A program made the position numbers and the translations under genes. From Hyphomonadaceae bacterium (GTDB taxonomy: Bacteria; Pseudomonadota; Alphaproteobacteria; Caulobacterales; Aquidulcibacteraceae): a stretch of DNA of 64,000 nucleotides. The stretch's first letter is position 1, and each line of letters opens with the position of its first letter. Of this stretch, positions 9,101 through 60,912 are shown piece by piece. The notes under the pieces are model-generated. The model did no database searches, was not told where the DNA came from, and was given only the letters and a program-made list of their open reading frames with translations. The stretch lies in NCBI GenBank assembly GCA_009773395.1, contig WRPI01000001.1, forward strand, positions 434,001 through 498,000. Direction: 5' to 3'.

Positions 9101-9987
9101 TTCTTAGTAAGCCGCCGACATAATTCGTCTAATTGTTCCAAATTATTGTAATTCAACACCAAGGCTCCAACACCAGTTTTCTTGGAGTGCTTAATTTCCA
9201 CTTCGAGGCCAAGCGAATTTGACAAATCGTTAGAAAGAGCAATAGAATCAATGTCTTGCTGGCTTTTTGGGGCGGCGGATTTGGTTTTACTCGCTGGTCT
9301 ATTCGACAATTTTTCCGCGTCTCTAACGCTTAATCCTTTTGCTAACATCTCCCTAGCGGCAGCAAGCGGGTCCTCGGCCGCCAAAGCAGCGCGAGCGTGC
9401 CCAGCACTTAAAGCACCACTCACCACCATTTCCTTGACTTCGTCGGGCAAAGTCAAAAGCCTTAAAGTATTGGCGACATAGGCACGACTGCGCCCAACTG
9501 ATTCGGCAATTTTGGGTTGGTTATAGCCGAATCTGTCAATCAATTGTTCGAATGCCATTGCTTCTTCGATGGCGTTCAAATTGCTGCGTTGTAAATTTTC
9601 TACGATTGCAACTTTTAAGGTTTCTAAATCATCGAAGTGGCGAATAACCACGGGAACTCGGTGCAGGCCCGCCAATTGTGCCGCGCGCCAACGCCTTTCA
9701 CCAGCAACAATAGAATATTGCCCGCCGCCATTTTCACTTAGGCGGACAACAATTGGCTGCACAATGCCGTGTTCTTTTATTGTATCAGCAAGTGTTTCCA
9801 ATTCTTCACGGTCGAAATGGCGTCGCGGTTGATTGGGGTTGGGGTGAATCATTTCAATAGGTGTTTCACGTGAAACATTATTATGCGAATTTGATTGCAC
9901 TTCCGCGGCTTCCCCAAGTAGTGCCGAAAGACCACGACCAAGGCCGCGTTGCGCCGTTGATTTTGGTGTAGTTTTTTCTTCGTTCAT
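9097..9987 (-). CDS. parB: Chromosome partitioning protein ParB
   Basis: ParB/Spo0J of 296 residues, a CTP-dependent DNA clamp that loads at parS and spreads to form the partition complex. Domains: a short N-terminal ParA-contact segment (RGLGRGLSALLG), the ParB/Srx CTP-binding domain with NPNQPRRHFD and the GERRWRAA motif, a helix-turn-helix (IAESVGRSRAYVANTLRLL) and a C-terminal dimerisation domain. A parS site lies inside the gene and is translated as VSRET. The ATG overlaps the parA stop by four bases, indicating translational coupling in one operon. Confidence 0.98.
   Translation of the reverse strand: MNEEKTTPKSTAQRGLGRGLSALLGEAAEVQSNSHNNVSRETPIEMIHPNPNQPRRHFDREELETLADTIKEHGIVQPIVVRLSENGGGQYSIVAGERRWRAAQLAGLHRVPVVIRHFDDLETLKVAIVENLQRSNLNAIEEAMAFEQLIDRFGYNQPKIAESVGRSRAYVANTLRLLTLPDEVKEMVVSGALSAGHARAALAAEDPLAAAREMLAKGLSVRDAEKLSNRPASKTKSAAPKSQQDIDSIALSNDLSNSLGLEVEIKHSKKTGVGALVLNYNNLEQLDELCRRLTKN
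9862..9877. promoter_or_regulatory. parS: parS site 1 (inside parB)
   Basis: Perfect 16-bp palindrome TGTTTCACGTGAAACA, identical to the general bacterial parS consensus bound by ParB. It lies in the 5' part of parB, about 10 kb from the predicted origin. Confidence 0.95.
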
Positions 9988-10796: not shown

Positions 10797-11415
10797 CAGT
10801 GTTCAGCCTCATCAAATCCGAAATTTCCAGCACACAGCCATGTTTATGGGTAATGCTTTGCGTTGTTTTGTAACAGAACTTCCACTTTGTCGAGGCCTCA
10901 TTAATTTCCTTCGACACATCTTCGCCTTTTAAGAACAACATTCGTGCGCCAAGTTGTGAATAAGCCAGTGATAAATCTAAGAGCTTGGTCAGGGGTGCAA
11001 ATGCTCTCGCCGTCACGAGGTCATATTTTGCGGGTGACAAATCTTCTATCTTTTTGTTTTCTATGTTTATTTTGACGTCCAATGTCCGCGCGGCTTCGCG
11101 CAGAAACGCACATTTCTTGGATTGAGCTTCGACCAAAGTTATTTGCTGCATGCGCGATTTGTCTTTCAATAGCGCTGCGATAATGAGACCCGGCAGGCCA
11201 GCTCCCGATCCCATATCAATCACGCTATGGATATTCTCGCCCGCTACATCAAGAATTTGCGCACAATCCGCTGCGTGGCGCGACCAAAAATCCGTTATTG
11301 TCGATGCCGAAACAAGGTTTATTCTAGCATTCCATAAAATTAGTAGTTCGCGATAGGTGTTTATTCGAGAAAGTGTTTCACGTGAAACATTAAACTTCTC
11401 ACCAAATTCGGCCAT
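10786..11415 (-). CDS. rsmG: 16S rRNA (guanine-N7) methyltransferase RsmG
   Basis: SAM-dependent methyltransferase (GidB) of 209 residues that modifies G527 of 16S rRNA. The SAM loop DMGSGAGLPGLI is visible, followed by VEAQSKKCAFLREA and VTARAFAPL. The frame is open to 11454, but the ATG at 11415 has AAGGA nine bases upstream and follows the mnmG stop, so it is preferred; the two earlier ATGs would lie inside mnmG. The second parS site is within its 5' end and is translated as VSRET. Confidence 0.95.
   Translation of the reverse strand: MAEFGEKFNVSRETLSRINTYRELLILWNARINLVSASTITDFWSRHAADCAQILDVAGENIHSVIDMGSGAGLPGLIIAALLKDKSRMQQITLVEAQSKKCAFLREAARTLDVKINIENKKIEDLSPAKYDLVTARAFAPLTKLLDLSLAYSQLGARMLFLKGEDVSKEINEASTKWKFCYKTTQSITHKHGCVLEISDLMRLNTGEK
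11374..11389. promoter_or_regulatory. parS: parS site 2 (inside rsmG)
   Basis: Exact TGTTTCACGTGAAACA palindrome, identical to sites 1 and 3, about 1.5 kb from site 1 and within the first codons of rsmG. Confidence 0.95.
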
Positions 11416-13439: not shown

Positions 13440-13617
13440 GGAATGGTTTATGGCGAAACTTGTTTCCCCAAAACCATTCATCAAGTGTGTTATGCGCCCT
13501 AGACTTTTGTCAAGCCCGCGCTTTGCGCCCGAAGGCTTTGGGGCTTGACAAAAATCTAGGGCGCAAAAGAACAATCATCGAATGGGCTTAAGGCAAACTT
13601 GTCCTTAAGACCATTCC
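13440..13617. repeat. Three-hairpin repeat, copy A
   Basis: Member of the dispersed structured-repeat family. Hairpin 1 (13441-13479) begins GAATGG and ends CCATTC. The central long hairpin (13494-13564) has arms starting GCGCCCTAGA and ending TCTAGGGCGC, with a conserved inner GTCAAG/CTTGAC. Hairpin 3 (13580-13616) again runs GAATGG to CCATTC. The outermost GGAATGG/CCATTCC can also pair across the whole element. The loop is of the second class, in the orientation opposite to copy F. It occupies most of the mnmG-mnmE gap (13289-13774), which otherwise holds only parS 3. Confidence 0.85.
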
Positions 13618-13746: not shown

Positions 13747-13762
13747 TGTTTCACGTGAAACA
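13747..13762. promoter_or_regulatory. parS: parS site 3 (just downstream of mnmE)
   Basis: Third exact TGTTTCACGTGAAACA palindrome, 12 bases after the mnmE stop in the intergenic region. The three sites span about 3.9 kb and lie 6-10 kb from the predicted origin, consistent with a centromere-like partition locus. Confidence 0.95.
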
Positions 13763-23992: not shown

Positions 23993-24078
23993 AACTTGGG
24001 TCTTATTATTTAAGAGCGACAGATTTTCAAGACGAATTAATTTTGTCCTTATGGTATCAATCTTTCAGGGTTGTTGGA

Positions 24079-24304
24079 AAGAAAGAATAAGTGGCTAAGG
24101 AATGGTTTATGGCGAACCTTGTCTCGCCAAAACCATTCATCGAGTTTGTTAAGCGCCCTAGGTTTTAGTCAAGTCCCGAAGCCGCTTCGCGGTCGCGCTT
24201 TGCGCGAGGACTTGACTAAAGCCTAGGGCGCGAAGGGATAATAAGCGAATGGGCTTAGGGCAAACCTGTCCTTAAGACCATTCCAAAGCCACTTATTCTT
24301 TCTT
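24079..24304. repeat. Three-hairpin repeat, copy B (most complete)
   Basis: Outer inverted repeat 24079-24105 / 24278-24304 pairs at 25 of 27 positions. It encloses hairpin 1 (24100-24138), a long central hairpin (24153-24231, arms GCGCCCTAGG / CCTAGGGCGC with inner GTCAAGTCC/GGACTTGAC) and hairpin 3 (24247-24283). The GAATGG and CCATTC ends are shared between the outer stem and hairpins 1 and 3, so alternative folds compete. The loop is of the first class (GCCGCTTCGCGGTCGCGC). The right flank to about 24353 recurs beside copy G. It follows dnaQ; 23993-24078 shows nothing else. Confidence 0.88.
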
Positions 24305-24358
24305 CCCCAAACAATACACCAAACGTAGATATTTGATGCAACTTGAAGATCCGATGCA

Positions 24359-24456
24359 CCAGCACTTCGCCCCTTGACAGGCGCACTAGGCGGCAGAACC
24401 ATATTTGAAGGGTTTTTGTTAAAACAAAGTTTTCACCAAAAACCCCTCCCAAGCCT
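24359..24456. repeat. Truncated three-hairpin repeat, copy H (related to copy E)
   Basis: CAGCACTTCGCCCCTTGACA followed by an altered CACTAGGCGGC corresponds to half of the central hairpin of copy E. It is joined to the reverse complement of copy E's first hairpin (24407-24450, GAAGGGTTTTTG ... CCAAAAACCC). The other half of the centre and the third hairpin are missing. It lies directly beside copy B, suggesting one element was damaged by insertion or recombination with another. Confidence 0.7.
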
Positions 24457-24503
24457 TGACACCCTTGCTCCCCATAAAGCCCTTGTCTATTAATCTCTCA
24501 AAG

Positions 24504-26201: not shown

Positions 26202-28976
26202 CTATCCATGCGCACCAAAATAATTGGCAATCGCAACGCCGATTCTTAAAATTAGATCGTAAGATTTTTCGATTTCATCGAAATAATCAGTGTGCAGGCT
26301 TTTATAGGCTTGGGTGGTTTCGCTTGGATAATCAGTTGGCTCGTCAATTTCAAAATCATTGATTGAAGGCGCGGATATAACAAATGCGCGCCGTAAAAGT
26401 TCCAGCGCTTCGGTGATTCGCAGCGATAAAATCATATCCAATATGTCATCTCGGCTAATATCATTGCGCCGCGAAAATGCTGGTATTTGCACCGCTTTGA
26501 TGAAAATATGTTGCATCAAGCAAATCCGTAAAGCGTGCAATACTCCCAATTGTCGCCGCACATCTTGATCTTGCTCCTTTAATGGCCCAAGGTCCAATTG
26601 CGCCAAAAGCCTGTGGAAGCGTAAACCATCAACTCGTAGCCTTGAAGCTAAGCGCCGCATTTGCGAAGATCTGTCGTCATTTTCAAGTTTTTCGGCCAAT
26701 GCCAAACAAGCATTTTCAAGCTGGCTTTCGGTGCCGCGATAGGTCCGCGATGACCAAAAGGCACTTGTAAAAATCTCGCCATAAGCCGCGAGGCTTTTGA
26801 TGCTAGCAAGTGAGTTTGATGCCATAAACAGGCGGAATATTTGTTGCCCGCGCGCACTATTATTGATTAGTTCGCCAATCCCTTCAACATCGTCTTTGCT
26901 CGCGGTTCCAACACCGGTCAGAATATTTACGGGAAAACCCAATTGCTGCAAAATCGCATTGTGCGGGATAGCCCGTATTTGGCGCAAGCTCATGTCCCTA
27001 TCGGCCGAAAGGTCCGATTGCCGCCGTGATTTGCGCGATCCAGTTTCTTTTAACAAGCCAAGGCCAAAAGCCGATATTGCGCGCGAATAGGATTTGTCAT
27101 TAAGGTAGTCGCGTTGAACCTGGCGAACGCCGCGATAAAAATCCAAACTCAAATCAGTTCGCGTATAAAAAGGGTCGTCAATAATCGGCGTATCTTCGCA
27201 CTCAACCTCTGCAATTCGAGTCAAAGTCGAAAGCGCTAAATCATAAGAACGGAAATATAAATAACCATCACCGCCTTGAAAACTAACTTCAAGCTCGGTC
27301 CGCAAATGGTGTTTTTTGAACTGCCCCCTTGCCCAAATACTCATTGGATAAGTCAATCTATCGCGCATAGATGATGGATGAGCGCCGCGCCCCATGGATT
27401 CGCCGTGGGTGTTGAAAATTAAAGCCGAAACTTCGCGCAAATCATGGTCCGCCATTGTGCGGGCAAGGCGCGAATGAAGCCGTTCAATCGCCAAAGCTGC
27501 TGGAATTTGCCCCACAAAACGCCCAGCATCCGAAAAACCAGTTTGAATAGCAATTCGACCGCGTGATTTGATATATTTGCGATATTTCCTATCGCTTAGC
27601 AAGGTTTCCAAAAAGCGCCCGCCATGCTCCATGGCACTTTCGGTTTCAAAAAGTGGTGAGATATCGATTTTTTCGTCAATTCCGAATAATTTGGCAAAAT
27701 AAAGCGCGATTAATGCGGTTTGTGGCTGCTCACACTCGGCAATCAATAATCTGACTTCTGCATCACTATCAATGTGACGTAAAATCTGCGCAATCGCCAA
27801 AAACTGCCTTATGGCTGTGGTTGATTCAATGGCAAGGGCAGCGAAATTGCTGCGGAGCGGTTTAACGGCTGCAATAAGTTTTTGAACTGTCTTTAATGCA
27901 CCAGTGCTATTTAGCTCAAAATCAATTTCTTCACCAATATGTTGGCGCATGGCGTTATTTAGCTGGGCGGAATTGACCCTGAAATGAATCATACCCATTC
28001 CAAGTCCGTCAGTGCGCATTGCCGCCGCCAAAACCAACATGTCTTTTGCAGCTTTTTGGTTGGTTTCTTGTTCTGCCAAAGCTTCAATTTCGCCAATAAT
28101 TTCGGCCAATGATAATATTTTGCTTGAATCCTCTTTGGTTAGCTCATTTGCCGCGTGGGACAATTCATCAGCAGAGGTGAAATCGCTTGCAAAAAGTGCT
28201 GCCATTGTCTCGGTATGTTGTTTTGCCGCCTTTAGCTTTTCGGCTATTTCCGAAATACCCAAATCATCAGCTCGTTCATGGTAAATACCGAGAATATTGG
28301 CTTTTTCACTCAGGCGATATTTGATTGAGGTGACCCACGAAATATCGGTGCGACCGTCCATATCGTAACCAACCCAAGTTGCGAAACGATACGGGGCAGG
28401 CTTTGCTTGTTTCCAGTCTTGCGGATATTGCTTCGCAGCGACATCAAACACAATTTCCGATAATTTATCGCGGGCTTTCATTGCCCGCCCAATTGCGGCC
28501 ATCGCCTCGCCGTGTTCATAATCCAGTGAAATATTGTCAAATTTGGTTTTTGGTGTGCACATTAAAGGCGAAACTAGACCAGCAGTAACAGCATCCGCGA
28601 CCGCATCGGCTTCGTTTTTGTTCAAAAGAAACGTCGGGTGTGCAGTGAAAACACAATGCAAAATTGGTTTTGCCCAAAAATCACTAAAGCTCTGAAAATC
28701 AAGGGTTTGCGCGCGCGCCGCAACAATCTTCGCGAAAGAACCCAAATTATCTTTCTCATTTATCGGTTGCAAAAAAGCATGAAGCTTGCGCGACCTCGAT
28801 TGCAAACTTTCGCAGGCAAGCTCGGAAACCAAATCGGATACTTGGTTCAAAGATAGTTCATGCTTTTCAAGCTGCCGCGACAGGTCAAATGCAAGTTGAA
28901 AAACCGGATTAAATAACGGGGTTTCCTCGGTCGTTTTATGCAATTTTTGAAGCCTAGCGGCAAGTGAGAGCGACAT
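26202..28976 (-). CDS. ppc: Phosphoenolpyruvate carboxylase, divergent form
   Basis: Protein of 924 residues matching PEP carboxylase in length and motif order. The enzyme carboxylates PEP to oxaloacetate. The first catalytic motif is recognisable as FTAHPT (His at about 151; usual form LTAHPTE), and a central motif reads FNTHGESMGRGAHPSS where most enzymes have FHGRGGxxGRGGxP. FQGGDGYLYF and GIGELI follow. The C-terminus ends FGAHG rather than the nearly invariant xNTG. These changes suggest a diverged clade or altered regulation; activity is not certain. It is convergent with the peptidoglycan-binding gene. Confidence 0.75.
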   Translation of the reverse strand: MSLSLAARLQKLHKTTEETPLFNPVFQLAFDLSRQLEKHELSLNQVSDLVSELACESLQSRSRKLHAFLQPINEKDNLGSFAKIVAARAQTLDFQSFSDFWAKPILHCVFTAHPTFLLNKNEADAVADAVTAGLVSPLMCTPKTKFDNISLDYEHGEAMAAIGRAMKARDKLSEIVFDVAAKQYPQDWKQAKPAPYRFATWVGYDMDGRTDISWVTSIKYRLSEKANILGIYHERADDLGISEIAEKLKAAKQHTETMAALFASDFTSADELSHAANELTKEDSSKILSLAEIIGEIEALAEQETNQKAAKDMLVLAAAMRTDGLGMGMIHFRVNSAQLNNAMRQHIGEEIDFELNSTGALKTVQKLIAAVKPLRSNFAALAIESTTAIRQFLAIAQILRHIDSDAEVRLLIAECEQPQTALIALYFAKLFGIDEKIDISPLFETESAMEHGGRFLETLLSDRKYRKYIKSRGRIAIQTGFSDAGRFVGQIPAALAIERLHSRLARTMADHDLREVSALIFNTHGESMGRGAHPSSMRDRLTYPMSIWARGQFKKHHLRTELEVSFQGGDGYLYFRSYDLALSTLTRIAEVECEDTPIIDDPFYTRTDLSLDFYRGVRQVQRDYLNDKSYSRAISAFGLGLLKETGSRKSRRQSDLSADRDMSLRQIRAIPHNAILQQLGFPVNILTGVGTASKDDVEGIGELINNSARGQQIFRLFMASNSLASIKSLAAYGEIFTSAFWSSRTYRGTESQLENACLALAEKLENDDRSSQMRRLASRLRVDGLRFHRLLAQLDLGPLKEQDQDVRRQLGVLHALRICLMQHIFIKAVQIPAFSRRNDISRDDILDMILSLRITEALELLRRAFVISAPSINDFEIDEPTDYPSETTQAYKSLHTDYFDEIEKSYDLILRIGVAIANYFGAHG

Positions 28977-32165: not shown

Positions 32166-32194
32166 GCTAAGTCGCTAAAACAATAAAAACTGGG

Positions 32195-32375
32195 AACGGC
32201 TTTATGTCACGTTGTGCCAGTAAAGCCTTGGTTCGATTTTGTAATTCGCGCTATTTCATTGTCAAGTCCCGCAGCCGCTTCGCGGTCGCGCTTTGGCGCG
32301 AGGACTTGACAATGAAATAGCGCAATTAGACTTGAAGAAGGCTTGTGGCAGATTTTGCCATAAGCGTTCAAGACC
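32195..32375. repeat. Three-hairpin repeat, copy C (sequence-diverged arms)
   Basis: Same architecture as copy B but with different stem sequences. Hairpin 1 (32198-32227) has arms GGCTTTA / TAAAGCC. The central hairpin (about 32242-32329) has arms GCGCTATTTCATT / AATGAAATAGCGC with the conserved inner GTCAAGTCC/GGACTTGAC. Hairpin 3 (32331-32372) has arms CTTGAA / TTCAAG and inner TGGCA/TGCCA. The first-class loop is nearly unchanged. It fills the 299-base gap between the convergent glmM and DUF6065 genes. Confidence 0.82.
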
Positions 32376-40910: not shown

Positions 40911-41186
40911 ATTTCACTTTTTGGCTTTGATCCAGGGAAAATGTCTAATTCCTAAACTTAGAGCATTTCCCACGAAGTGTTAAGCGGTTTTTGGATAAGA
41001 AATCGGACAAACAACAAAATCGAAACCCGGCAATACTGGCACAACGTGGCCTAACGCAAAAGCTGTGCAAATAGAATCGCTTAAGCCGGAATGTGTTTGA
41101 TTTTTCGGTTTTGGTTTTATGCATGGAAAAACTAACACGCTAATGCGACGCATTTGCTAATGTGTCAGTATTGCTTTGAAGAAATT

Positions 41187-41382
41187 GCTTTGGAATGGTC
41201 TTATGGGCAGGCTTGCCCTAAGCCCATTCGCTTATTATCCCTTCGCGCCCTAGGTTTTAGTCAAGTCCCAAAGCCGCTTCGCGGTCGCGCTTTGGCGCGA
41301 GGGCTTGACAAAAACCTAGGGCGCACAAACACTTGATGAATGGTTTTGGCGAGACAAGGTTCGCCATAAACCATTCCTAAGC
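41187..41382. repeat. Three-hairpin repeat, copy D (arms inverted relative to its centre)
   Basis: Outer stem 41187-41198 / 41371-41382 (GCTTTGGAATGG with CCATTCCTAAGC). The GGGC-type hairpin, third in copies A, B and F, comes first here (41193-41229). The central hairpin follows (41245-41324, arms GCGCCCTAGG / CCTAGGGCGC) with its first-class loop in the same direction as copy B, and then the GGTTTTGG-type hairpin (41338-41376). The arms are thus flipped while the centre is not. It lies upstream of the basic-tail protein gene. Confidence 0.87.
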
Positions 41383-41498
41383 CACTTACATATCTCTCCA
41401 ACAACCCTGCAAAATTAATTCATCTTGAAAGTCTGGTGCGCTCGCGCCTATCCAAAGCCCTTTTCTCGCCTATAAACCGCCGAGCGGCGAAAAAATGA

Positions 41499-41774
41499 CT
41501 AGATTTCACCCAGCGCAAGCAAATATAAATCCAGCATCATTTCTTCTTCTTGGCGGGTTTTGCTGTCTTTTTTGCGCAAACGAACAACGGTGCGCAGCGC
41601 TTTGGTATCAAAACCCAGCGCTTTGGCGTCGCCATAAACCTCTTTTAATTGATCCGCGACTTCTGCTTTTTCGGTTTCTAAATTTTCAATTCGCGTAACA
41701 TAAGACCGCAATTTTTCTTTTGTGGTTTCGGTCAGTGCTTGTGGGGCTACAAATTCAACATCTTCAAAGCTCAT
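41499..41774 (-). CDS. gapR: GapR family DNA-binding protein (DUF2312)
   Basis: Small coiled-coil protein of 91 residues matching DUF2312/UPF0335. In Caulobacter, GapR encircles overtwisted DNA and is needed for replication and chromosome organisation. Features include KEKLRSYVTRIENLETEKAEVADQLKEVYGDAKALGFD (in part) and KALRTVVRLRKKD, the conserved basic DNA-contact region. Presence is typical of alphaproteobacteria and fits the CtrA/DnaA-type origin in this window. It lies 85 bases downstream of the TPR gene. Confidence 0.92.
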   Translation of the reverse strand: MSFEDVEFVAPQALTETTKEKLRSYVTRIENLETEKAEVADQLKEVYGDAKALGFDTKALRTVVRLRKKDSKTRQEEEMMLDLYLLALGEI

Positions 41775-41859
41775 TTTATTTTCCTCAATTGAGATGCTTT
41801 CCTAACCAGTTTAGATATTGGTTCAACCGCGAACACCAGCTCGACCACAGAAAAAGTCA

Positions 41860-42534
41860 TTAAAGGCCGATGCCTTTGGTTTTGCTGTCAATCCGAAAAA
41901 TTGCCCGCTCAGCGTCACTAAGGTTTGGGTTGTGATAAAGTGCTTTTTCAAACGCTTTGCGCGCTTTATCCAATTCGCCAGCTTCTTCATATAATGTGCC
42001 AAGCCCATGCCAAGCGGCAAAATGGCGGGGTTCAATTTCGAGCGCCTTTAACGTCATGGCTTTTGCAAGCTCTTTGTCGCCAAGCCGATATGCAATTGCC
42101 CCCGCCCGCGCAAATGATTCGCTAAAGCTGGGTTCAAGTTTCTGGGCGCTTTGATAGATTTGTAGCGCACGTGGCCAATCCTCCGCTTGCTCCAGTTCAG
42201 CAGCGCCTTCAAGCAGTAAATTTACTGTTGGCTGCTCGGCAACGGACATTTGCGCATAAAGTTTCGCCTCAATCATTTCTGCTTCAATCACGTTTTTCGC
42301 AAATCGCAATTCATTGAAATAATAAGTAATTTGTGTTTCGCGGAGCTGGCTTTCGTTTTGTGGGATTGGTGCTGGTTTTGGCGCTGCGACTTTTGAATGA
42401 ACCGCCTCAAATTCTTCTGGAGCTACATTGTTTCGAGTTCCAAACAGCCATAAGGCAACCAAAACCAAGGCCAATATCACGCTGAATATTTGGATGTCTC
42501 TTTTGTTGCGGTTTTGGGTTTTTGAAACAGTCAA
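41860..42534 (-). CDS. Membrane-anchored TPR protein
   Basis: Protein of 224 residues. One N-terminal transmembrane helix (about 14-30) is followed by a Pro/Ala linker and tetratricopeptide repeats in the C-terminal half (DWPRALQIYQSAQKLEPSF, KELAKAMTLKALEIEPRHFA, GELDKARKAFEKALYHNPNL). TPRs mediate protein contacts; the partner is unknown. It is divergent from leuC, with only 56 bases between the start codons. Confidence 0.85.
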   Translation of the reverse strand: MTVSKTQNRNKRDIQIFSVILALVLVALWLFGTRNNVAPEEFEAVHSKVAAPKPAPIPQNESQLRETQITYYFNELRFAKNVIEAEMIEAKLYAQMSVAEQPTVNLLLEGAAELEQAEDWPRALQIYQSAQKLEPSFSESFARAGAIAYRLGDKELAKAMTLKALEIEPRHFAAWHGLGTLYEEAGELDKARKAFEKALYHNPNLSDAERAIFRIDSKTKGIGL

Positions 42535-42590
42535 AAGATTTCCACTCCCAATACTAGATAGTTTGGCGTTGATTGTTTATATGGCGCGTT

Positions 42591-44027
42591 ATGAAAACCC
42601 TCGCAACACCAAAAACCCTATATGACAAAATATGGGACAGCCATTTTATTTGTGATACCGAAAATGGCGACAGCCTAATTTATATCGACCTTCACCTTAT
42701 TCACGAAGTAACCACGCCCCAGGCATTTGCAGGATTGGCCGCAAATCGCCGCGAAGTTGCTGCGCCACAACAAACATTGGCGGTTGCCGATCATAATACT
42801 CCAACCGAAAACCAAGCAGCAGGCGTTGATGCGGTGGAAGATGACGAAGCGAGGCTGCAACTACAAACACTTTCGCGAAATGTCGCCAAGCATAATATCG
42901 AATTTTTCCCGATGGGGCATGTCAACAATGGCATTGTGCATGTTGTTGGCCCAGAGCAAGGGCGAACTCAACCGTTTATGACCATTGTTTGCGGCGACAG
43001 CCATACTTCAACTCATGGCGCATTTGGCGCATTGGCGCACGGAATTGGCACGTCAGAAGTAGAACATGTTTTGGCAAGCCAGACTTTGCGCGCCCGCAAA
43101 ATGAAAAATATGGCAATTGTCGTCGAGGGCAGTTTGCAAAATGGTGTAAGCGCCAAAGACTTGGCTTTGGCAATAATTGCAAAAATTGGCACGGCAGGCG
43201 GAACTGGTGCAGTTATAGAATTTATGGGCTCAGCCATCAGAGAATTGTCAATGGAAGGCCGTATGACGCTTTGCAATATGGCAATCGAAGCCGGTGCTCG
43301 CGCTGGCCTGATTGGGGTTGATGAAAAAACAATTGGATATCTTGAAAATAGGCCATCGTCGCCAAAAGGCGATAATTGGGGCAAAGCCGTTGAATATTGG
43401 CGAGGAGCCATAAGTGATGAAGGCGCGAAGTTTGACATGACCTTCACCCTTGATGGCAACAAAATTAAACCAATGGTCACATGGGGAACCAGCCCCGAAC
43501 AAGCAATTGCAATTGACGAAGTCATTCCCGCGCGAAATACAATCTCGCAAATTGGGCTTGAAACTTTTGATAGGGCGCTCGATTATATGGACTTGCAGGC
43601 GGGCCAAAAAATTGCAAGCGTTGCAATCCAGCGGGTGTTTATTGGCTCTTGCACCAATTCGCGGATTGAAGATTTACGCGAAGCGGCCAGTGTTGCTCGT
43701 GGGCAAAAAGTAGCGCCATCAGTTCGCGCCATGGTAGTGCCAGGATCGGGGCTAGTAAAATTACAAGCCGAGGCCGAAGGATTGGCAGATATATTCATTG
43801 AAGCTGGATTTGAATGGCGCGAACCTGGCTGTTCGATGTGTTTAGGAATGAACCCTGATAAATTGGGGCCAAAGGAGCGCTGTGCTTCAACATCAAATCG
43901 CAATTTTGAAGGAAGGCAAGGGCGCGGTGGCCGCACCCATTTGGTTTCACCGCGAATGGCAGCTTGGGCGGCGATTAAAGGTGAGCTGTTCGATTATCGC
44001 CCAGGGTTGGCCCGCGCTGTCGATTGA
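42591..44027 (+). CDS. leuC: 3-isopropylmalate dehydratase large subunit
   Basis: Aconitase-family [4Fe-4S] subunit of isopropylmalate isomerase, 478 residues. It has [11 protein letters not shown]-like ([12 protein letters not shown]), [24 protein letters not shown] (in part), and the cluster cysteines in [17 protein letters not shown] and [13 protein letters not shown] 42591 is used; a TTG 18 bases upstream is less likely. The 3' end overlaps the convergent M14 peptidase coding sequence by 34 bases. Its partner leuD is 7.3 kb away. Confidence 0.96.
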
Positions 44028-46720
44028 ACAATTGCATTTAGCAAAAGCCCATTAAGCCCGTCGCTGTGGGCGCGATAGGTTAGATCCGAATTGATGCCGA
44101 TAACAAAGCCACGACCTCTTGGTTGCACCATTGCATAGGGTTTAAGCGCCATTTGCTCTTGATTGGCTTCCCAAACCACACCGCTTGCGACCAAATTCGG
44201 TTTTGACGAAAATAACAGAGGATTGGCACCATTTGCTCGATTTAATGGGCGGAAAATGTCGGAGCCTTGATACATGACATAAAGATTTGCGGGCAAGCCT
44301 TGCGTAAGCCAATGCGGTTCTGAAGTTTCTACCCGAACGATTGCACCATCGACAGAAATTGGATCCGCGGCATCTTCTTTAATAGTGTTTTCATACTCGC
44401 TTTTGTCGCTTATGCTGGTTCCAGCGACTGTAGCGCTGGTTTCACGTGAACGAGCTTCGCCACTGGGCGTTGCAGTTTCGCGGCGCGTTGCCAATAATTC
44501 CACGTTGGGCGCTGCTAGAAAGCGGGTCGCGCCACCAAGCGCAATAATAGTTCCACCATTCTGCACATAGGCTTTTAGATTGCTGATGCCGTCTTCACCG
44601 AGCATGGTTAAATAACCCGCATTTGTGTCGGGTAAAATTAAAACATCGAACCTTGCCATCGAAGCGCTTCGCAAGTTTCGGGTTCTTATTGGGGTAACAT
44701 TAAAGCCGATATTGCGCTCGATAACGAAGCGAGTATTGCCCGCAGAATATGGATCTGTCGGCGCGTCCCAAGCAATTGCGATTCGTGGAAGCCGCAACTT
44801 TACTGCCTTAGGTGAGCCAAGGCTTGGGCCATTTGTGACCCAAGAATCATCAAAACCAACAATATTCGCGCCTGATTGATTGGCCAAAAGTGCGACTTTA
44901 CCGCCAAGCCCATCGGAATTTTCGCTGTTCAAAAGAACAATTGAACCAGCAGGATAGGTTTTTCCTTCGAGAGTGAAAGCCTCTTCGAGCGCCCGCATTT
45001 TAAGGCCGTTCCTCAAAGCTAAAGCCTCAAAACGAATATAAGCGGCACTTCCAGAAGCGACAACATACCCGACTTTTGCAGCAGGGTTCAGCACATTCCC
45101 GCGCAAACCTGATTGCGGGGTTACTATATTGGTCGCGACCTGTGGGTTGGCGTTGCAATTTGCAACAGTGACATTAAACATCAACGGCAAAGACCATGCC
45201 GTTACGTCGTAAATTTCATCTTCAAGGCCACGGTTGCGCCTATCTTGTTGCCTCGCGATAAAATCTCTATCGAGCGCGACATTTCTATCAAGCAAATTTC
45301 TAATTAGACGTGAGCTTGGCTGTGCCCCCGAGACAATATAAGATCCAGCGCCATAATTATTCCCACAAGCATTAAAACTGCCGTTCGCAACTTTCACATC
45401 AATTCCTTGGCGAACCATAAGCTGTGCCAATTTATCGGCGCTTGCTTGATCGCTTTGGATTGGTATAAAATAATTGCCAGCGCTTTGGCCTTCGCTAATT
45501 GCTGTGCGTCGGAACTCATAAAAACTGCGCAAAAATTGCTGGCGATCGCGTGCGCCAACTTCAATGGTGGACATTGCCGCAACGAAATGGTGGTGAACCG
45601 TGTCGCGATAAGTCAAAACATTGCCATCACGACCGCGTGAGCGAAGCCCGCGCGAGGATCCTTGCTCATAAGTTAAAGCAATTGTGCCTTGCGCCGTTGG
45701 CCAGCCATCGCCATAGCCCGGGTAAAAGCCGTCAAATATTTCGCGTGTAAAATAATTAAAGCCAAAATTATCAAACCAACGGGCATTATTGCGCCCAATG
45801 CTGGCTCTCAATGCCCTTTGCCCCGCAGTGTGAAACGGGTTTATTGGATCGGCCTCTGGCGGGAAGAAGAAAGTTTCATCACGGCTCATTTCATGGGCAT
45901 CAACCAAAATTGTTGGATACCATTGCAAATATGCCGCTACATGCCCTTGGGTTTCGGGCTGGGTTAGTGAAATCCAGTCGCGATTAAGGTCAAAATTATA
46001 GTGGTTCATGCGCCCACCTGGCCAAGGCTGGTCGCGCTCCGCCGCTAGTTCATCGGCATCAGCTTCAAGGCCAATTGCTTGTTCATTATTGGCCAAAACC
46101 CGCGCGCGACCGTCAGGGTTTTGGCTTGGAACAATTATTGTAAGGCTGTTTTGCCTTATGTTTGCCATACGATTATCGCCGCGACTTGCCAATAAATGAT
46201 AGGCAACCATCATTGAGCTATCGGCAGGGCTAATTTCATCGCCATGCACAGAATTTGCAAGCCAAATGATTGTCGGTTGCGCTGCGATAATCGCATCTGA
46301 TTGGGCTGGCGTTGTGCGCCGTGGATCCGCCAATGCCAGCGAATTCGCTTTGATTGCATCAAGATTGCGAATTTGCTCTGGCGTGCCAATTGCCACATAA
46401 ATCAAGCGCCGGTTTTGCCATGTGCGACCATAATCAAATATTTTCACGCGCTCTGGCAGGGCGGTTTGCAATGCTTCGAAATAGCGAATAATTTCGGAAG
46501 GCGGCGTTATACGCTCACCAATATCATAACCAAGAACGCTTCTTGGTGTGGGAATCGTGGGGTCATAATCTGCATTTGGCCACATTAAATCGGGGGCAGC
46601 GGCAATTGGTGGCTCCGTGGTTTGCGCCATCGCGATATTGGGTAATGACTGAATATAAAGCGCGCATATGGCAACCATACCGACGCTTAGTTGTTTGAAA
46701 TGCCTAAATCGATTTGTCAA
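43994..46720 (-). CDS. Secreted M14 family zinc carboxypeptidase
   Basis: Large exported metallopeptidase of 908 residues. A signal peptide (about 14-32, ending AMA) is followed by the M14 catalytic domain: zinc-binding His and Glu in [14 protein letters not shown] (about 158-164), [18 protein letters not shown] with substrate-binding Asn-Arg, and the later VDAHEM. The C-terminal 400 residues include a Rossmann-like, GATase1-type region ([15 protein letters not shown]) common in large M14 homologues. Likely role is degrading extracellular or periplasmic peptides. It overlaps leuC by 34 bases at the 3' ends. Confidence 0.88.
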
Positions 46721-46807
46721 AACCCCAATCCCCTAAAGATACGAAGTTGTTGCATCACGAAAAGGTTAAATCAAGACTAGATTACTTCAAAAGGGAAAAC
46801 GCTACTC

Positions 46808-47353
46808 TCAATCTTGCGTCTTCAAATATTCAAGATGCCTCTCAACGCCTTCGACAATCAAATTCTTCGCAAAAGCCGAATCATGCCAGCCGCCGAGTTT
46901 GGTCCATTTTCCAGGCTCCAAATCCTTGTAATGGGTGAAAAAATGCTCAATTTGTGCGAGTTGTATTGCTGGTAAGTCGGTATATTCGTCGATGCCGCTA
47001 TAAAAAGCGGTTAGACGCGGAACCGGGACGGCGATGATTTTTTCATCAATTCCCGCTTGGTCTTCCATCATTAAAACCCCAACAGGCTTAACCCGCAAAA
47101 CACAGCCAGGAATTAGTGGTCGCCTGCCGATGCATAAAACATCCACAGGGTCGCCATCGCCCGATAAAGTGCCAGGGATAAAACCGTAATTGGTGGGATA
47201 GCGCATCGGGGTATATAGGAACCTATCGACGAACATTGCACCAGAAGCCTTGTCAATTTCGTATTTTATTGGCTCGCCACCAAGCGGAACTTCAATAATT
47301 ACATTGACTTCGTTTGGTACGTCGGCGCCAACTGGTATTTTGGTTATGTCCAT
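46808..47353 (-). CDS. ppa: Inorganic pyrophosphatase
   Basis: Family I soluble pyrophosphatase of 181 residues, hydrolysing PPi to drive biosynthesis. It has [18 protein letters not shown], the [23 protein letters not shown] signature region (in part, metal-binding Asp residues), and KVIAVP-like [10 protein letters not shown]. It is alone between the M14 gene and the repeat copy E; 47354-47502 upstream contains its promoter region and a 20-base sequence similar to one at about 40974. Confidence 0.96.
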
Positions 47354-47502
47354 AAACTTTCTCCGCTTTTATTGCTCGGGTGAATACACTGTCTGGTAAA
47401 AAGAAGCACGAAAAAAGACTTCACAAAATCCAAAGTGCGGTAATTAACATAAAGCAATGCCCGAAAAGTGCTAAACGGTTTTTGGAAAGAGCTAAGGCTT
47501 AG

Positions 47503-47683
47503 GAAGGGTTTTTGGTGAAAACTGTGTTTTAACAAAAACCCTTCATATATGATCTTGCCGCCCCGAGTGCTTGTCAAGGGGTGGCTTCGCCATGCTAGCA
47601 CTTCGCCCCTTGACAAGCACTCGGGGCGGCTTTCACCATTGATACCAAGTTTTTTGAAGCTAAAAGGTTCACCAAAACTTGGT
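47503..47683. repeat. Three-hairpin repeat, copy E (different sequence family, same layout)
   Basis: Hairpin 1 (47503-47544) has arms GAAGGGTTTTTG / CAAAAACCCTTC. The central hairpin (47557-47630) has a perfect 25-bp stem starting GCCGCCCCGAG and ending in GTCAAGGGG, with a loop of its own. Hairpin 3 (47644-47683) has arms ACCAAG / CTTGGT. Only the layout and the inner GTCAAG/CTTGAC are shared with copies A-D. It lies between ppa and the RND permease gene (gap 47354-47793). Confidence 0.84.
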
Positions 47684-47793
47684 CATGTCTCTTTTCAAAT
47701 TGTACCAAATCGACAGGTCTTTTTTGAATAAACCAGTGAATATAGGTGATTTTATAGCCTCGACATCAGTATTCAGTCGGCTATAGCCGCTGC

Positions 47794-50700
47794 CTATTCC
47801 GCAGGTAAACCCGCTTTCAACCGTCTTTCATGCTCTGCTCTAATTGCGACCAATCGGTCTTCTTCAGAAACACTCGAAACGCCGCCAAATAGCCGTTTTA
47901 TCCAATGGTCCAAATCATCAACAATTGTGTATACAGCAGGAACAAAAACCAAGCTCAGCGCAGTTGATAAAGCCAACCCGCCAATTACCGCAATTGCCAT
48001 ACCTTGCCTGAATGCACCAGGGCCAGCGGAGGTTAGGGCGTTGGGTATCATACCCGCAATCATTGCAATTGAAGTCATAATGATGGGGCGTGAGCGTTTG
48101 CGAGCCGCGTCAATCAATGCTTCATAACGCCCCATTCCATGGGCGATGGATTCAACCGCAAAGTCCACCAGCAAAATTGAGTTTTTGGTAGCAATACCAA
48201 TCAGCATCAAAAGCCCAATAAAGACTGGTATGGATAAAGGTTGCTGCACCAAGAATAACCCTAAAAATGCCCCCGCAGGCGCGAGAACAATAACTGAAAC
48301 AATGGTAATTGGTTGCAAGAAATCTTTAAACAAAAGCACAAGAACGCAATAAACCAAAAACACACCCAAAAGAATTGCGCTCAAAAACTGACTTACCATA
48401 TCACCTAATTCTTCGGCGTCACCAGATTCCTTAATTATGACGCCGGGGCCTGGGTTCTTGTAAAAATCCAAATTTTTCAATTCGTCAAAAGCCGGGCCAA
48501 GTTCATAACCATCGGCAAGACCCGAAGATACTGACACTACTCTTTGACGATTTTCACGTGAAATCCGCGCTTGCCCGCCGCCGTATGTGACTTCGGCAAC
48601 AGCATCCAAAGGCACAGTTCCGCCACTCATGGTCGGGACGCGCAATGCCCTTATGCTTTCAATATCGGCACGATTTTCACGACCCAAGCGAACCAAAATC
48701 GGAATTTGCCGCTCGCCAGCATTAAACTTCGGCAAGTTCATTTCTACGTCCCCGGAAGTTGCAATTCGGGTTGCGTTCGCGATTTCATACACGCTTACCC
48801 CAAGCCTTGCCGCTTCTTCTCGGCGCGGCACCACATGGATTTCGGGCTTGGTAATATCCGCCGAGGAGCGTAAATCGACAACCCATTTAAGTTTGCGCAT
48901 TTCTTGAACCATGCGATCTGCGGCTGCATCAAGGGCTTGCGGGTTATCTGAAACCAAATTGATTGTGACTTGGCCACCGCCCGGTCCGCCACCGCCGCCA
49001 AATTGCGCACGGATTCCTGGGATTTGTGTGATTTGTGAACGCAAAGAGGCTTCATATTGTTTCTTGGTAACGTCACGATCTTTACGGTCAGTCATAGTTA
49101 TGAAATAGCGCGCACCAGTCAAATCACCGCGCAAAGACTGAACCACATGTTTGGTCCCTTGCTCATTGGCAACTATAATCCCGACTTGACGCGCTGTAAT
49201 ATCCGCCTCATGCGGCGTAAGGCCGGGCGGTAAGTCGATGGAAACTTGCATAAAGCCATCATCAAGCTCTGGCATGAATGTTTTGGGCGTAAATACTGCT
49301 GCGCCCAACGAAACAACCATAACAACCATACCGATGCCAAAAGTTTTCCAGCGGTTTAGCAAAGCCCAATTGAGAACGCCTTCATACCAAATCATGGCTT
49401 TGCTTGGCCCTTTTTGTTCCTCAGTTTTTGGGTTCAAAAGGTATGCCGCCATCAATGGCGTGATTAGCCTAGCCACTAGAAGCGAGAACATCACCGCAAT
49501 TGCTACGGTTATGCCAAATGATTTGAAAAACTGGCCGACGATCCCGGTCATAAAACTAACTGGCACAAACACCGCCACGATTGTGAAAGTCGTTGCCACT
49601 ACCGCAAGGCCAATTTCGTCCGCCGCTTCTAAAGCAGCTTGAAATGGGGTTTTGCCCATTTGAATGTGGCGTTCAATATTTTCGATTTCAACAATTGCGT
49701 CATCAACCAAAATCCCTGCCACCAAACCTAGCGCAAGCAAGGTCACGCCATTTAGGGTGAAACCCAACAAATCCATGAAGTAAAAAGTCGGAATAGTTGA
49801 TAGCGGAATTGCGACTGCCGCCAAAAACGTCGCTCGCCCTTCTTTTCTGGCAATCGCAAATATCGCAATTACCAATGTGAAAAGCGCTAAAATCACCACT
49901 TCACTAATATGTTGATGGGTCAATTTGCCAATAATATAGCCACCGCCAAAAAGGACAATACCGATAGCTGCCGCAGCTTTGAATATTACGCGCCAACCAC
50001 CCAAAAATATCGAGACAACTAAAGTCGCCAATAATGCGCCTTCGAACATCGATAAAAGCGATGAATCATAATCGGACTGCACATAATCGGCAGGCGTATA
50101 AGCGGGGTAAATTTCAATGCCGGGGTTTGCCTTGCTAAAATCAGCAAGTTTTTTTTGCACCAAACGATAAGTGCGCAATGCCGAGGCGGTTTTGGTTGAT
50201 TGAATTTCAAACATTGTAACTGGCGCATCATTGAGCCGTGAAACACTGGCCAAATCTGTGCCGCCATCGCGCACATCCGCGATATCGGACAGCTTTATCG
50301 CGCGCCCGCCACCAAGAATAATTGGGGTTTGCGCCAATTCTTCAACGGTTTTGGCTGAGCCAATGGTGCGAATAAGTTGCTGGCCTGAACCGGTTTCCGC
50401 CATGCCGCCGGGGATATCGGCGTTTTGCGCCCGCAATGCCCGCGAAACATCGGATACAGTTGCCCCAAAAGCATTAAGCCGCGCAGGGGAAACTTCAACG
50501 CTGATTTGGCGATTGGTTCCGCCAAAGCGATTAACCCGCCCTACGCCTTTTACACTAAGCAATTGGCGCGAGATTTCGCGGTCAATTAGCCATGATAAAT
50601 CTTGCGGCGACATGTTTGGCGCCCTAACCGCATATATACCAAGTGGATCCTGATCATTAAAATCAAAACGCTGGACAATTGGTTCCATAATGCCATCGGG

Positions 50701-51060
50701 TAATTCTGAACGAACTTGCGCCACCGCCGCCCTTGCATCATCGACTGCTTTTGAAATATCAGTGCCAATTTGCAATTCCACAAATGTTTCAGAATTTCCA
50801 GTTCGCGCGGTTGAATTTACTTTCTTAACGCCTTCAATGCCAGCCAAAGCCCCTTCTATTTTTATGGTAATTTGGTTTTCAATTTCGGCAGGTGCGGCAC
50901 CCGGTTGTGAAACCACAACCACAAAAGCCGGAAAGCTAATTTCAGGATTTGAATTAATCGGGAGCTTAAAAAATGCACCCATACCCATAATGGTGAGAAT
51001 AAAAAACAACACCACTGGTGGAATTGGGTTCTTAATCGCCCAAGAAGAAATATTGCGCAT
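47794..51060 (-). CDS. RND efflux permease (HAE1/AcrB family)
   Basis: Inner-membrane proton-driven multidrug exporter of 1088 residues. Twelve transmembrane helices are implied, with two large periplasmic loops. Recognisable segments are [13 protein letters not shown] near the N-terminus, the GVKKVNS pore-domain start, helix 4 with [21 protein letters not shown] (in part; the proton-relay Asp pair in DDA), and the second-half [20 protein letters not shown]. It is about 40 residues longer than AcrB. It lies ten bases downstream of the adaptor gene. A core parS-like TTTCACGTGAAA at 48552-48563 is probably coincidental. Confidence 0.95.
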
Positions 51061-51069
51061 TTCGCCCTC

Positions 51070-52473
51070 TTATTTCTTATTTTGTGGCGCAGCCACTGTT
51101 GGTGTTGGCCGTGCAGCAGGAACAGCCCCGCGAACCGGAGTTCTTGTTGGCGCAATTTTTTCGTTTTCAGCAAGGAAAGATGCGCCCGCCGTCACAATCC
51201 ATGAACCGACAGCTGGGCCAGTTAATAATTCCACCATATCGCCGTTACGACTACCGATGGTAATTTTTTGCTTAGTAACACTATTATCGGGGCGCATTAC
51301 GAACACCGAAGCACCGTCTTTATCATACAGAATGCCAGCGGCAGGTAGCGCGCTTACTCGTCTTGTGCTGCCATTGGCGACACCATTCAAAAAGACGCCA
51401 GAACCAATTGCAGATGAAGGTTCAAGCGTGAATCTTGCGATGCCTGTATGTTTTTGCGGGTCAATTTGCGCTGGTAATCGCCGTAGATTGCCACCGACAT
51501 AAGAACCATCGGGTGCGCGAAATTGGGCGCGCATTCCGATGCTAAGGCGCGAAATATCGGCTTCCGAGGTTTCGGCGGCAACCTCGAGCGCGCCATTTGA
51601 AGTTATTGTGAACATTGGCATACCAGTTGCGCCAGCAATTTCGCCAACCGAAACATTGCGGGCAGTAACAAGGCCACCGACAGGGGATGTAATTAAGCCG
51701 CCATTTTGCCGCGAATTTGATTGCGCTTGTTGCGCAATTGCTACCCGCAAATCTGCCTGCGCCGCAGCTAATCTTGCTTGTGCTGCTGAAAGCCCTTGCC
51801 GCCTTGATTGCATAATGGCGTTCATGTCGCCGCGTGCCGAATTAAGCCGTGCTTGGGCGGATTCCATTTGGTGTCTGCGCCGTTCAATTTCTTCGCGTGA
51901 CAATGCACCAACATCATTGGTCGCCAATGCGCGTTCATATTGCGAGCGTGCCTCGGCGGCTGCAATTTCGGCGGCATCAATTGAAAGCGCGGATTCGCGT
52001 GGCCCACTGCTGCTGCGGTTAAGCACTTCACGGGCGCTAGTTACAGAAACTTGGGCTTCTGCAAGTGAAGTTTGGGCGCGGCGAACTTGGGCCGCCAATA
52101 ATTCACTATCGGCGCCGATTTGCCTGCCATCAAGACGCGCCAAAGCCTGCCCCGCCCTAACATAATCGCCGGCATCAACCAATAATTGAACTACCCGTGC
52201 GCCAGATGAAGTTGGAAAAATTCTCGCTTCTTGAATTGCCTGCACTCGGCCCGCAACAATGATTGTTGGGGTAAAGTCGGTTTGCACGATTTGCGCAATT
52301 GACACCGCCTGCGGCGAACGCCCAGGGCCTTTTTTCTTATTTGATTCCTTTTTTTCAACTGATTCTTTTTTTGCTTTTTCGGTACCAGTTTTTGAACAAG
52401 CATTAAAAGAAAAAACCGAAACTAGCGCCAAAAGTGAAACCGCTATTTTGAACTTATTGTTATTTTTTCTCAT
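51070..52473 (-). CDS. RND efflux periplasmic adaptor (membrane fusion protein)
   Basis: AcrA/MexA-type adaptor of 467 residues linking the permease to the outer-membrane channel. The signal region ends SFNACSK, a weak lipobox with Cys at about 26. A Lys-rich linker is followed by the beta-barrel/lipoyl start (GRVQAIQEARIFPTSSG), a long helical hairpin (about 130-260, with AARSQYERAL and SAQARLNSARGDM), then lipoyl return (NGGLITSPVGGLVTARNVSVGEIAG in part) and membrane-proximal domain. It lies between the TetR gene and the permease gene, all on the minus strand. Confidence 0.93.
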   Translation of the reverse strand: MRKNNNKFKIAVSLLALVSVFSFNACSKTGTEKAKKESVEKKESNKKKGPGRSPQAVSIAQIVQTDFTPTIIVAGRVQAIQEARIFPTSSGARVVQLLVDAGDYVRAGQALARLDGRQIGADSELLAAQVRRAQTSLAEAQVSVTSAREVLNRSSSGPRESALSIDAAEIAAAEARSQYERALATNDVGALSREEIERRRHQMESAQARLNSARGDMNAIMQSRRQGLSAAQARLAAAQADLRVAIAQQAQSNSRQNGGLITSPVGGLVTARNVSVGEIAGATGMPMFTITSNGALEVAAETSEADISRLSIGMRAQFRAPDGSYVGGNLRRLPAQIDPQKHTGIARFTLEPSSAIGSGVFLNGVANGSTRRVSALPAAGILYDKDGASVFVMRPDNSVTKQKITIGSRNGDMVELLTGPAVGSWIVTAGASFLAENEKIAPTRTPVRGAVPAARPTPTVAAPQNKK

Positions 52474-52482
52474 GGGAATCTC

Positions 52483-53124
52483 TCAGGCTCGGTTCTTTAT
52501 TTGGGATTGGGTTTGGCTTTTAGGGCTTAAATAACGCTGGCAAAAATTTTTCAACCATCGGCTTGCTTCAATATTGCTAACATCGCCGCAAAACGCCATG
52601 CGCAGCACCATACCGTCAACAGAGGCCATAATCATGGTCGCTGCTTCGGCAATATTAAGGCTCTCATCAATATGCCGCAATTTTTGGCCGCATTCCAAAA
52701 TCGCGCAAAAATGACTATGTAAATCCATATAAGCGCGCGAACAGCTTTCGGCGAAAATCGGGTTGCGCATGGCTTCTGAAATCAGCTCCGCTGCCATTGC
52801 GCCTTGTTCTTTGGTGCAATAATTTGTCACAACGTCGTCAAGCAATTTATCCATAGTTTGAAAAAAATCTGCGCCGTTTTGAATTTCGCTAAGCGCCGAT
52901 TTGAATGATTGCATGGCACGGAATTGATCGTCTTCAGCCATAGCCGCAATAATTGATTCTTTGGAATCGAAATAGCGATAAAGCGCGCCCGGGCTAATGC
53001 TGGCTTTGGCGCAAATCTCGGCCATGGTGGTTGAGTGAAAACCACGCTGCTCGAAACATATTTTTGCTGCTTCGACTATTTCCCTTTTTCTAATTTCGAC
53101 CTTTTGAGGGTTGACTGTGCGCAC
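52483..53124 (-). CDS. TetR/AcrR family transcriptional repressor
   Basis: Repressor of 213 residues with the TetR N-terminal helix-turn-helix: RKREIVEAAKICFEQRGFHSTTMAEICAKASISPGALYRYF (shown only by ends; about 12-52). The ligand-binding C-terminal domain is divergent, as usual. It heads the tetR-adaptor-permease operon, nine bases before the adaptor, and is divergent from the outer-membrane channel gene. A perfect dyad operator candidate lies 19 bases upstream of its start, so it probably represses both itself and the efflux genes. Confidence 0.93.
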   Translation of the reverse strand: MRTVNPQKVEIRKREIVEAAKICFEQRGFHSTTMAEICAKASISPGALYRYFDSKESIIAAMAEDDQFRAMQSFKSALSEIQNGADFFQTMDKLLDDVVTNYCTKEQGAMAAELISEAMRNPIFAESCSRAYMDLHSHFCAILECGQKLRHIDESLNIAEAATMIMASVDGMVLRMAFCGDVSNIEASRWLKNFCQRYLSPKSQTQSQIKNRA

Positions 53125-53142
53125 GATTGCCCCTATTCATAA

Positions 53143-53156
53143 AACGAACATTCGTT
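53143..53156. promoter_or_regulatory. Candidate TetR operator in the divergent efflux promoter
   Basis: AACGAA-CA-TTCGTT is a perfect 6-bp dyad with a two-base centre, 19 bases before the repressor start and about 150 before the divergent channel gene. Similar GAACG/CGTTC dyads are typical of AcrR-like operators. Regulation of both promoters by the adjacent TetR protein is inferred. Confidence 0.6.
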
Positions 53157-53306
53157 CTCTTTATTGTTATCTGTGATTTGGGTCAAGGGTTTTTTGGTTG
53201 TTTTTGCATTGGTATTTAAGCGAAAATTGCCATTACAAGCCTGACAAATCCATATAAGAGGCATGAAGTGATTGTGTGGCGCTTAATTTAATAGGACCTT
53301 GGAAAT

Positions 53307-54782: not shown

Positions 54783-54953
54783 AAAACCAACGAGACATCT
54801 GGACAAATTGCACATTATATGGTGCAGTGCGTAGAGAATTATGCGCGCGGCACTGGGTCATCAAGAAAGCGCCAACGGGAGTGTGGAACAGTTGGGTGGA
54901 ATTAATCACCTTCAATCCAAAAATAAAACTTTTGGTTTGCGAAAGGAAAGTCA

Positions 54954-55147
54954 AGTGGCTTTGGAATGGTTTATGGAAAACCATGCTTTTCCAAAACCAT
55001 TCAACGAGTTTGTGTGCGCCCTAGGTTTTTGTCAAGCCCCTTGCCTTCGGGCGCAAAGCGCGGGCTTGACAAAAACCTAGGGCGCGAAAGGACAATAACC
55101 GAATGGGCTTAAGGCAAACCTGTCCTTAAGACCATTCCAAAGCAACT
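54954..55147. repeat. Three-hairpin repeat, copy F
   Basis: Outer stem 54954-54969 / 55132-55147 pairs at 15 of 16 bases. Hairpin 1 (54964-55002), central hairpin (55016-55085, arms GCGCCCTAGG / CCTAGGGCGC) and hairpin 3 (55101-55137) follow in the copy A/B order. The loop is of the second class (CCTTCGGGCGCAAAGCGCGG) and runs opposite to copy A's loop. It lies between the channel gene and the decayed toxin; 54783-54953 shows no convincing gene. Confidence 0.87.
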
Positions 55148-55194
55148 ACTTCAAGGCAATGAAAACTGATTGCTATTACGCCGCATTAGCATGA

Positions 55195-55329
55195 CGGTTT
55201 GTAGGAAGCGCAAAAACGAAAACCTCAAAACAGAACATAATCCACTTTAAGCGATTCCACTTAAACGACCTCTGCGCTAATGAAATAGAAATTGCTAAGA
55301 AAAGAAAGCGAGAACTCGAAAATGGCTAA
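55195..55329 (+). pseudogene. HigB-like toxin remnant (C-terminal end only)
   Basis: After an in-frame TGA (55192-55194) there are 44 open codons. The last 18 (ANEIEIAKKRKRELENG) closely resemble the C-terminal helix of Gp49/HigB-type RelE-superfamily toxins. The stop TAA at 55327-55329 overlaps the antitoxin ATG (55322) by eight bases, the arrangement usual for intact higBA pairs. Nothing upstream encodes the toxin's N-terminal beta-sheet, so the gene appears lost apart from this end. Identification rests on the short motif and the overlap. Confidence 0.5.
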
Positions 55330-55606: not shown

Positions 55607-55609
55607 GTT

Positions 55610-58245: not shown

Positions 58246-58315
58246 CACTTGCCCTTTTTTTGTGAATGACATAACCTTTTCACCGAGCTATGTTTGTAGC
58301 ATAGGGAAAACTGAT

Positions 58316-59143: not shown

Positions 59144-59144
59144 T

Positions 59145-59957: not shown

Positions 59958-60017
59958 CTTTCGCACTTGCTTAATACAAGAAGCATACACATTTGAGTCA
60001 CGAGAGGGCGCAATTTA

Positions 60018-60824: not shown

Positions 60825-60912
60825 TACTGAATTACGGCATTCGACATTTAAGTTGAAAAAATCAAGTTCAATTGACGACTTAAGCGTTTGGGTTGAAAAA
60901 AAGAAAAAGCAG

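Follow-up and report, generated by a model that had tools for sequence, protein, structure and literature searches.

The 64,000-nt stretch of the Hyphomonadaceae bacterium genome analysed here (the window) carries seven copies, A to G, of an element whose anatomy and boundaries can be traced in well-kept copies, which sits mostly at gene 3' ends and is absent from the same sites in a congener. Judging from sequence patterns, we give an even chance to the interpretation that this is a non-autonomous, MITE-like element with an invariable, palindromic, back-to-back pair of sigma-70-type promoters at its centre. The first-pass annotation had described an intergenic, ORF-less, dispersed three-hairpin family of unrecognised type, a description that holds: Rfam gave nothing in the window at gathering score, and nothing over the core at E values up to 1 at four loci. 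Literature searches found no matching element, and the MITE-like family is a real one, undescribed in the sources searched.

All seven copies lie where they had first been placed, and fold into three hairpins on both strands (−82 to −127 kcal/mol); the central stems of copies A to F are 22–28 bp long and 92–100% complementary. Copy A (three-hairpin core at 13440–13617, + strand) scores 200.6 bits at C7:447440–447617 with R1, a covariance model built from 28 copies. Its arms are decayed, its terminal inverted repeats (TIRs) score near chance, and its right end, at about 13735, adjoins a parS site (TGTTTCACGTGAAACA, 13747–13762), with further parS sites at 9862–9877 and 11374–11389. Copy B is a whole element with a left-type arm on both sides (24012–24361, + strand, R1 199.1 bits). 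Its core, at 24099–24284, corresponds to the repeat originally delimited as 24079–24304, its TIR-like ends are at 24012 (+) and 24361 (−), and the left end comes directly after a dnaQ-like ORF ending at 23992. The fragment that had been mentioned beside the seven copies proves to be a truncated E-type copy adjoining B (24360–24460, − strand), with an inverted repeat at 24407–24448 and a weak R1 match (C7:458246–458449, 33.9 bits). Copies D (41052–41445, − strand, 197.7 bits; core 41192–41377; TIR-like ends at 41052 and about 41443) and G (60833–61183, − strand, 183.2 bits; core 60921–61106; TIRs at 60833 (+) and 61183 (−)) are also whole, the central arm of G being GCGCTATGAATTTA. Copy F (54877–55279, + strand, 191.4 bits; core 54963–55138) has its right TIR at 55279 and a decayed left end of approximate position. 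Two copies represent divergent subfamilies with no recognisable TIRs: C (32193–32370, + strand with ambiguous orientation, 76.8 bits at C7:466193–466370), with a perfect central stem of 22 bp, and E (47502–47683, + strand, 69.5 bits at C7:481502–481683), with one of 25 bp. The long outer stem of copy B is a product of its having a left-type arm on both sides.

Alignment of 28 oriented copies with 150-nt flanks places the named core (∼186 nt) at the centre of a longer element, about 340–414 bp in well-kept copies. It runs in the order terminal repeat, arm, hairpin H1, linker, central hairpin H2, linker, hairpin H3, arm, terminal repeat. The left arm is about 77–87 nt and the right arm about 113–142 nt, and they terminate in inverted repeats (TAGAGCATCGGACGTTCAAGT... 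on the left, ...ACTTGAACATCCTTTGCGCTA on the right) of 21–27 nt, found at both ends of well-kept copies and decayed in A. These TIRs begin with TAG in a YTA context, giving TA at both ends (YTA...TAR), a possible TA target duplication. A 21-mer TIR pattern, allowing up to 3 mismatches, had 38 matches, against 0 for a reversed control. The core outlasts the ends, copy A combining a 200-bit core with near-chance TIRs. GTCAAG/CTTGAC is the sole invariant motif, and each arm of H2 has CTTGAC beside the tip. Besides copy B (L009), a left-type arm is found on both sides in L012 (C7:343132), which suggests exchange between the halves of the element. There is also a 164-bp MITE family with the same TIRs but without the three-hairpin core, in about 20 copies over C6, C7, C8, C10 and C15 (e.g. 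G000:C7:87808–87971, 93201–93364 and 189798–189961; L063, L066, L070, L077, L079).

In the whole genome (2.63 Mb), R1 detects 37 loci: 26 on C7, nine on C8 and single ones on C4 and C11, the remaining contigs being free of them; an initial 196-nt query had already found many copies. Standard copies score 163–209 bits, and the divergent C and E 77 and 70 bits. The covariance search that had been proposed thus did yield further copies, but the hundreds projected from the density of the window did not materialise, the 37 being centred on the origin. The contigs C7 and C8 hold 35 of them (p = 3e-13 against an even spread). When the left end of C8 is joined to the right end of C7, following synteny with the congener G001, these 35 extend from −332 to +432 kb around parS, with a median offset of −13 kb and 28 within 200 kb. 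Three perfect parS sites (C7:443862, 445374 and 447747), the genome's only ones at up to 1 mismatch, occur within 4 kb; the window is origin-proximal. In the complete genome G043, of the genus g6, the listed relatives are dispersed around the chromosome, so, within what was tested, the origin clustering is peculiar to the present species. It is real, but a mobile promoter-pair model does not predict it.

Gene calls, made with a simple codon-usage script, were available for 36 of the 37 loci, and all 36 copies are intergenic. Convergent genes enclose 17 of them (17% expected, p = 5e-5), tandem genes another 17, most of which are closer to the upstream stop, and divergent genes two. Several ends overlap the neighbouring gene, whose stop codon is the TAG of the TIR. 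Strict stop-codon targeting was considered and rejected: 13 of the 27 ends that face a gene 3' end are at a stop codon, but so are 15.6% of intergenic YTAR sites, making the coincidence only mildly higher than YTAR sites would give. The choice of YTAR targets plus selection may therefore be enough. A function as promoter for downstream genes was also rejected, as orientation within tandem pairs is unbiased (9 with, 8 against). Elsewhere in the window (26202–28976, − strand) is a gene for a Phosphoenolpyruvate carboxylase-like protein, 61–66% identical in congeners, with a partial Pfam match only (profile positions 334–624 of 919). The nearest matches to a plasmid-borne AcrB are mostly alphaproteobacterial, at about 43% identity, a weak sign of affinity.

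Mobility of the element is likely. The interval that holds copy A measures 486 bp here and 99 bp in G001, and that of copy E 440 bp and 95 bp; the element is absent from both G001 intervals, and the one matching copy A also has parS. R1 found no copy in the congeners G001–G004, from which it follows that the elements were either acquired after the genus arose or have gone through repeated losses. The TIRs, the YTA boundaries and the element-free state of the same gene intervals in a congener bear out the non-autonomous, MITE-like option among those first listed. A trans-acting transposase cutting at YTAR would have moved the element. Among the loci examined in its own genome, no TIR pair was found to enclose a transposase-sized gene, and none of the 59 other genomes tested in the family has the TIR; the partner transposon may have been lost, so that the element is classed as MITE-like only.

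Weaker R1 matches occur in the genus g6, and one in G008. A second covariance model, R2, built from G018 copies, yields matches in each of the nine g6 genomes, by the dozen in several of them, and recognises the original genome at 7e-16; it finds none in other congeners or in the other genera sampled. What recurs in g6 is the ∼200-bp core, whose flanks are mostly unrelated and whose boundaries differ from those described above. Common to the families are the order of the three hairpins, a multi-lobed tip with GTCAAG/CTTGAC at its base, and linkers that resemble one another; the one joining outer to central hairpin in copy B (CATCGAGTTTG) appears reverse-complemented in G018 copies. REP-like hairpins (GTCATCCCGGACGGCGAAGCCGATCCGGGA) border the majority of g6 copies and in places form tandem arrays (G018 and others, e.g. 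L120–L129), yet no Y1 transposase was found in the g6 genomes that have them. Draft contigs of g6 (G042, G044, G046) often end within or just past an element, as if the hairpins interrupted assembly.

Reading outward from the tip, five divergent families have TTGAC followed, 15–19 nt on, by a hexamer with A at position 2 and T at position 6. Using a −10-like score cut of 4.3, which was fixed after seeing the data, the strong side reaches the cut at this spacing in 91% of copies in the original genome and 98% in g6, against 4% and 0% in windows further out and a genomic background of 10–14%. The strong-side hexamers are GATAAT, CATAAT or GACAAT in the original genome and AACAAT in g6, while that of the weak side, CANNCT, is a poor −10. 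G008 shows the promoter layout on both sides (AAGAAT, TATCGT), and at least one side has it in copies of the C and E types; the − strands of copies E and G read TTGACA-17-GATCAT and TTGACT-18-GATAAT. Two of the five best-scoring sites in a 20-kb promoter scan fall in copies G and E. The terminal hairpins begin 4–7 nt past the −10-like hexamer. In the original genome most spacers measure 19 nt, which exceeds the ideal, and the promoter signal amounts to about five independent families only, as copies within a family share ancestry.

On this pattern, the CTTGAC of the two H2 arms would be the outward-facing −35 boxes of back-to-back sigma-70-type promoters, and the outer H2 stem would be their spacer, constrained in length though not in sequence. 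The linkers would carry the −10 hexamers (GATAAT, GACAAT or AACAAT on the strong side, CANNCT on the weak side), and H1 and H3 would sit where each outward transcript starts. Such an arrangement would explain why only one motif is conserved, and why the outer stem varies in sequence yet is alike in length. That the core works as a promoter pair is, to us, about an even bet, and we infer that transcription would start from it.

The tip of H2 (∼50 nt) stands in both orientations. Among 65 g6 cores the ratio is 35:30, with both forms in each of five species, and in the original genome it is about 17 to 10. Orthologous loci, recognised by 75–96% identical flanks, have inverted tips in 7 of 14 pairs, at 5 of 9 loci, and the inverted tips are identical at 0.85–0.96 once reverse-complemented and at about 0.5 otherwise. 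The mismatched base just outside GTCAAG is swapped at two of the five flipped loci and unswapped at three, so the exchange point varies. One orthologous locus has partly lost H2 by deletion in some g6 species, and another species lacks the element there. Template or strand switching is described as making and maintaining hairpins, compensatory stems and loop inversions (PMC8794818), and in vitro work with polymerases is reported to show loop inversion at inverted repeats (PMC5218489). The two-way tip is an observed outcome; the process behind it, and behind the perfect stems, would be either strand switching or an exchange between arms as the palindrome is replicated. Library PCR might conceivably have affected single assemblies, but such events amounted to at most about 1.5% of reads in the in vitro study, and G043 is a single complete contig.

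An A.C pair on one strand is a G.U pair on the other, and wobbles therefore help to tell DNA-level from RNA-level constraint. Right-hand hairpin H3 has 13 G.T against 2 A.C in the original genome and 55 against 5 in g6; for left-hand H1 the figures are 1 against 6 and 7 against 25. Like the promoter-like spacing, these wobbles favour transcription, with transcripts running outward from the centre, and 32 of 46 distinct wobble events agree with the outward strand (p = 0.006, one-sided). The asymmetry of the outer hairpins, the position at gene 3' ends and the compensated stems (all four pairs occur at the position after TCAAG) might also point to a transcribed structured RNA or mRNA 3'-end element, its fold kept by selection and acting on neighbouring transcripts. 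We consider this unlikely: the outer H2 stem has no G.U excess, H2 is deleted at one orthologous locus, Rfam has no match, and the inverted tips weaken a case built on pure RNA covariation. Nor were terminators called in copies D–G; classical intrinsic terminators, recognised by a GC-rich hairpin with a T run after it and one of the functions first suggested, were absent from these copies in a scan of 41300–61200 covering loops of up to 8 nt.

The crowding around the origin could instead mean that a nucleoid or segregation factor binds the hairpins, and that they are retained around oriC/parS to organise the region. The shorter, 164-bp family that shares the TIRs is indeed more widely spread (13 of 20 on C7/C8, against 35 of 37; Fisher p = 0.006), and cores outlast decayed TIRs. 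The dispersed relatives in G043, the congeners that live without copies and the lack of strand bias with respect to replication (20 with, 15 against) make such a role improbable, however. As for the tip, a recombinase or HUH-type nickase might flip it at GTCAAG/CTTGAC, the same hexamer bounding the tip in the original, g6 and G008 families, and the base just outside it being asymmetric in 60 of 65 g6 copies despite their two-way tips. Site-specific inversion is nevertheless quite doubtful, as that base is swapped in 2 of 5 orthologous flips, arguing that the exchange point is not fixed, and neither Y1 nor Y2 HUH transposases were found in the original genome; a −35 box would moreover account for the hexamer. 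An IS91-type Y2 transposase, considered as the flipping or mobilising enzyme, was rejected, being absent from the original genome and patchy in g6. The intergenic, palindromic, paired hairpins also recall a REPIN/BIME-type repeat mobilised by a RAYT, but this we find scarcely credible: the search for a RAYT/Y1 gene that had accompanied the REPIN suggestion gave 0 Y1_Tnp matches in the original genome and 0 in nine g6 genomes, as against its presence in eight other genera of the family, and the GTAG/CGTC head is not conserved.

If the reading we prefer, a mobile element with a central promoter pair, is right, then a non-autonomous element, a hairpin stem serving also as promoter spacer, and loops that invert repeatedly at fixed loci, features usually met apart, would be united in one architecture. 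Its dozens of replicated palindromes would be a natural set for measuring strand switching, and would caution that stems can covary strongly even when RNA selection plays no part. The distribution around parS would mean either that a transposon has spread locally within the origin domain or that the elements have a role in it. A domesticated mobile element, with dozens of palindromic, tip-inverting, bidirectionally transcribed, parS-centred sites by which the origin region of this chromosome is established or marked, is a more speculative version that we think quite unlikely.

Among known systems, REP, BIME and REPIN sequences with their RAYT (PMC2817692) are likewise many-copy extragenic palindromes in which pairing is preserved, but here the unit is much longer, no RAYT was found in the original genome or in g6 carriers, and the GT(A/G)G head is not conserved (GTAG, GTGG or CGTC occurs anywhere in 9 of 36 cores). 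The CerM-associated intergenic repeats (CIR) of Caulobacter, as presented in PMC2229807, are also alphaproteobacterial, consist of two hairpin arms and a linker, and are only partly MITE-like; their conserved motif GANTC (terminal loop) is present in only 2 of 36 cores here. Bacterial MITEs such as RUP, ERIC and NEMIS share the TIRs, TA termini, intergenic position, hairpin formation and lack of ORFs, but are given in that source as about 100–200 bp, whereas the present element has 340–414 bp, three hairpins and conserved linkers, together with both tip orientations, an origin-centred spread and a partner IS not found here. Correia repeat enclosed elements of Neisseria, too, are short and non-coding, with TIRs and TA termini, and are able to provide promoters at one end or both (PMC2649163; PMC2229807); the conserved −35/−10 layout seen here may be a counterpart. 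Set against the description of Correia elements, rather than their sequence, the present family differs in that the promoter-like pair is central, its −35 boxes flanking a multi-lobed, two-way tip and its spacers forming a hairpin stem.
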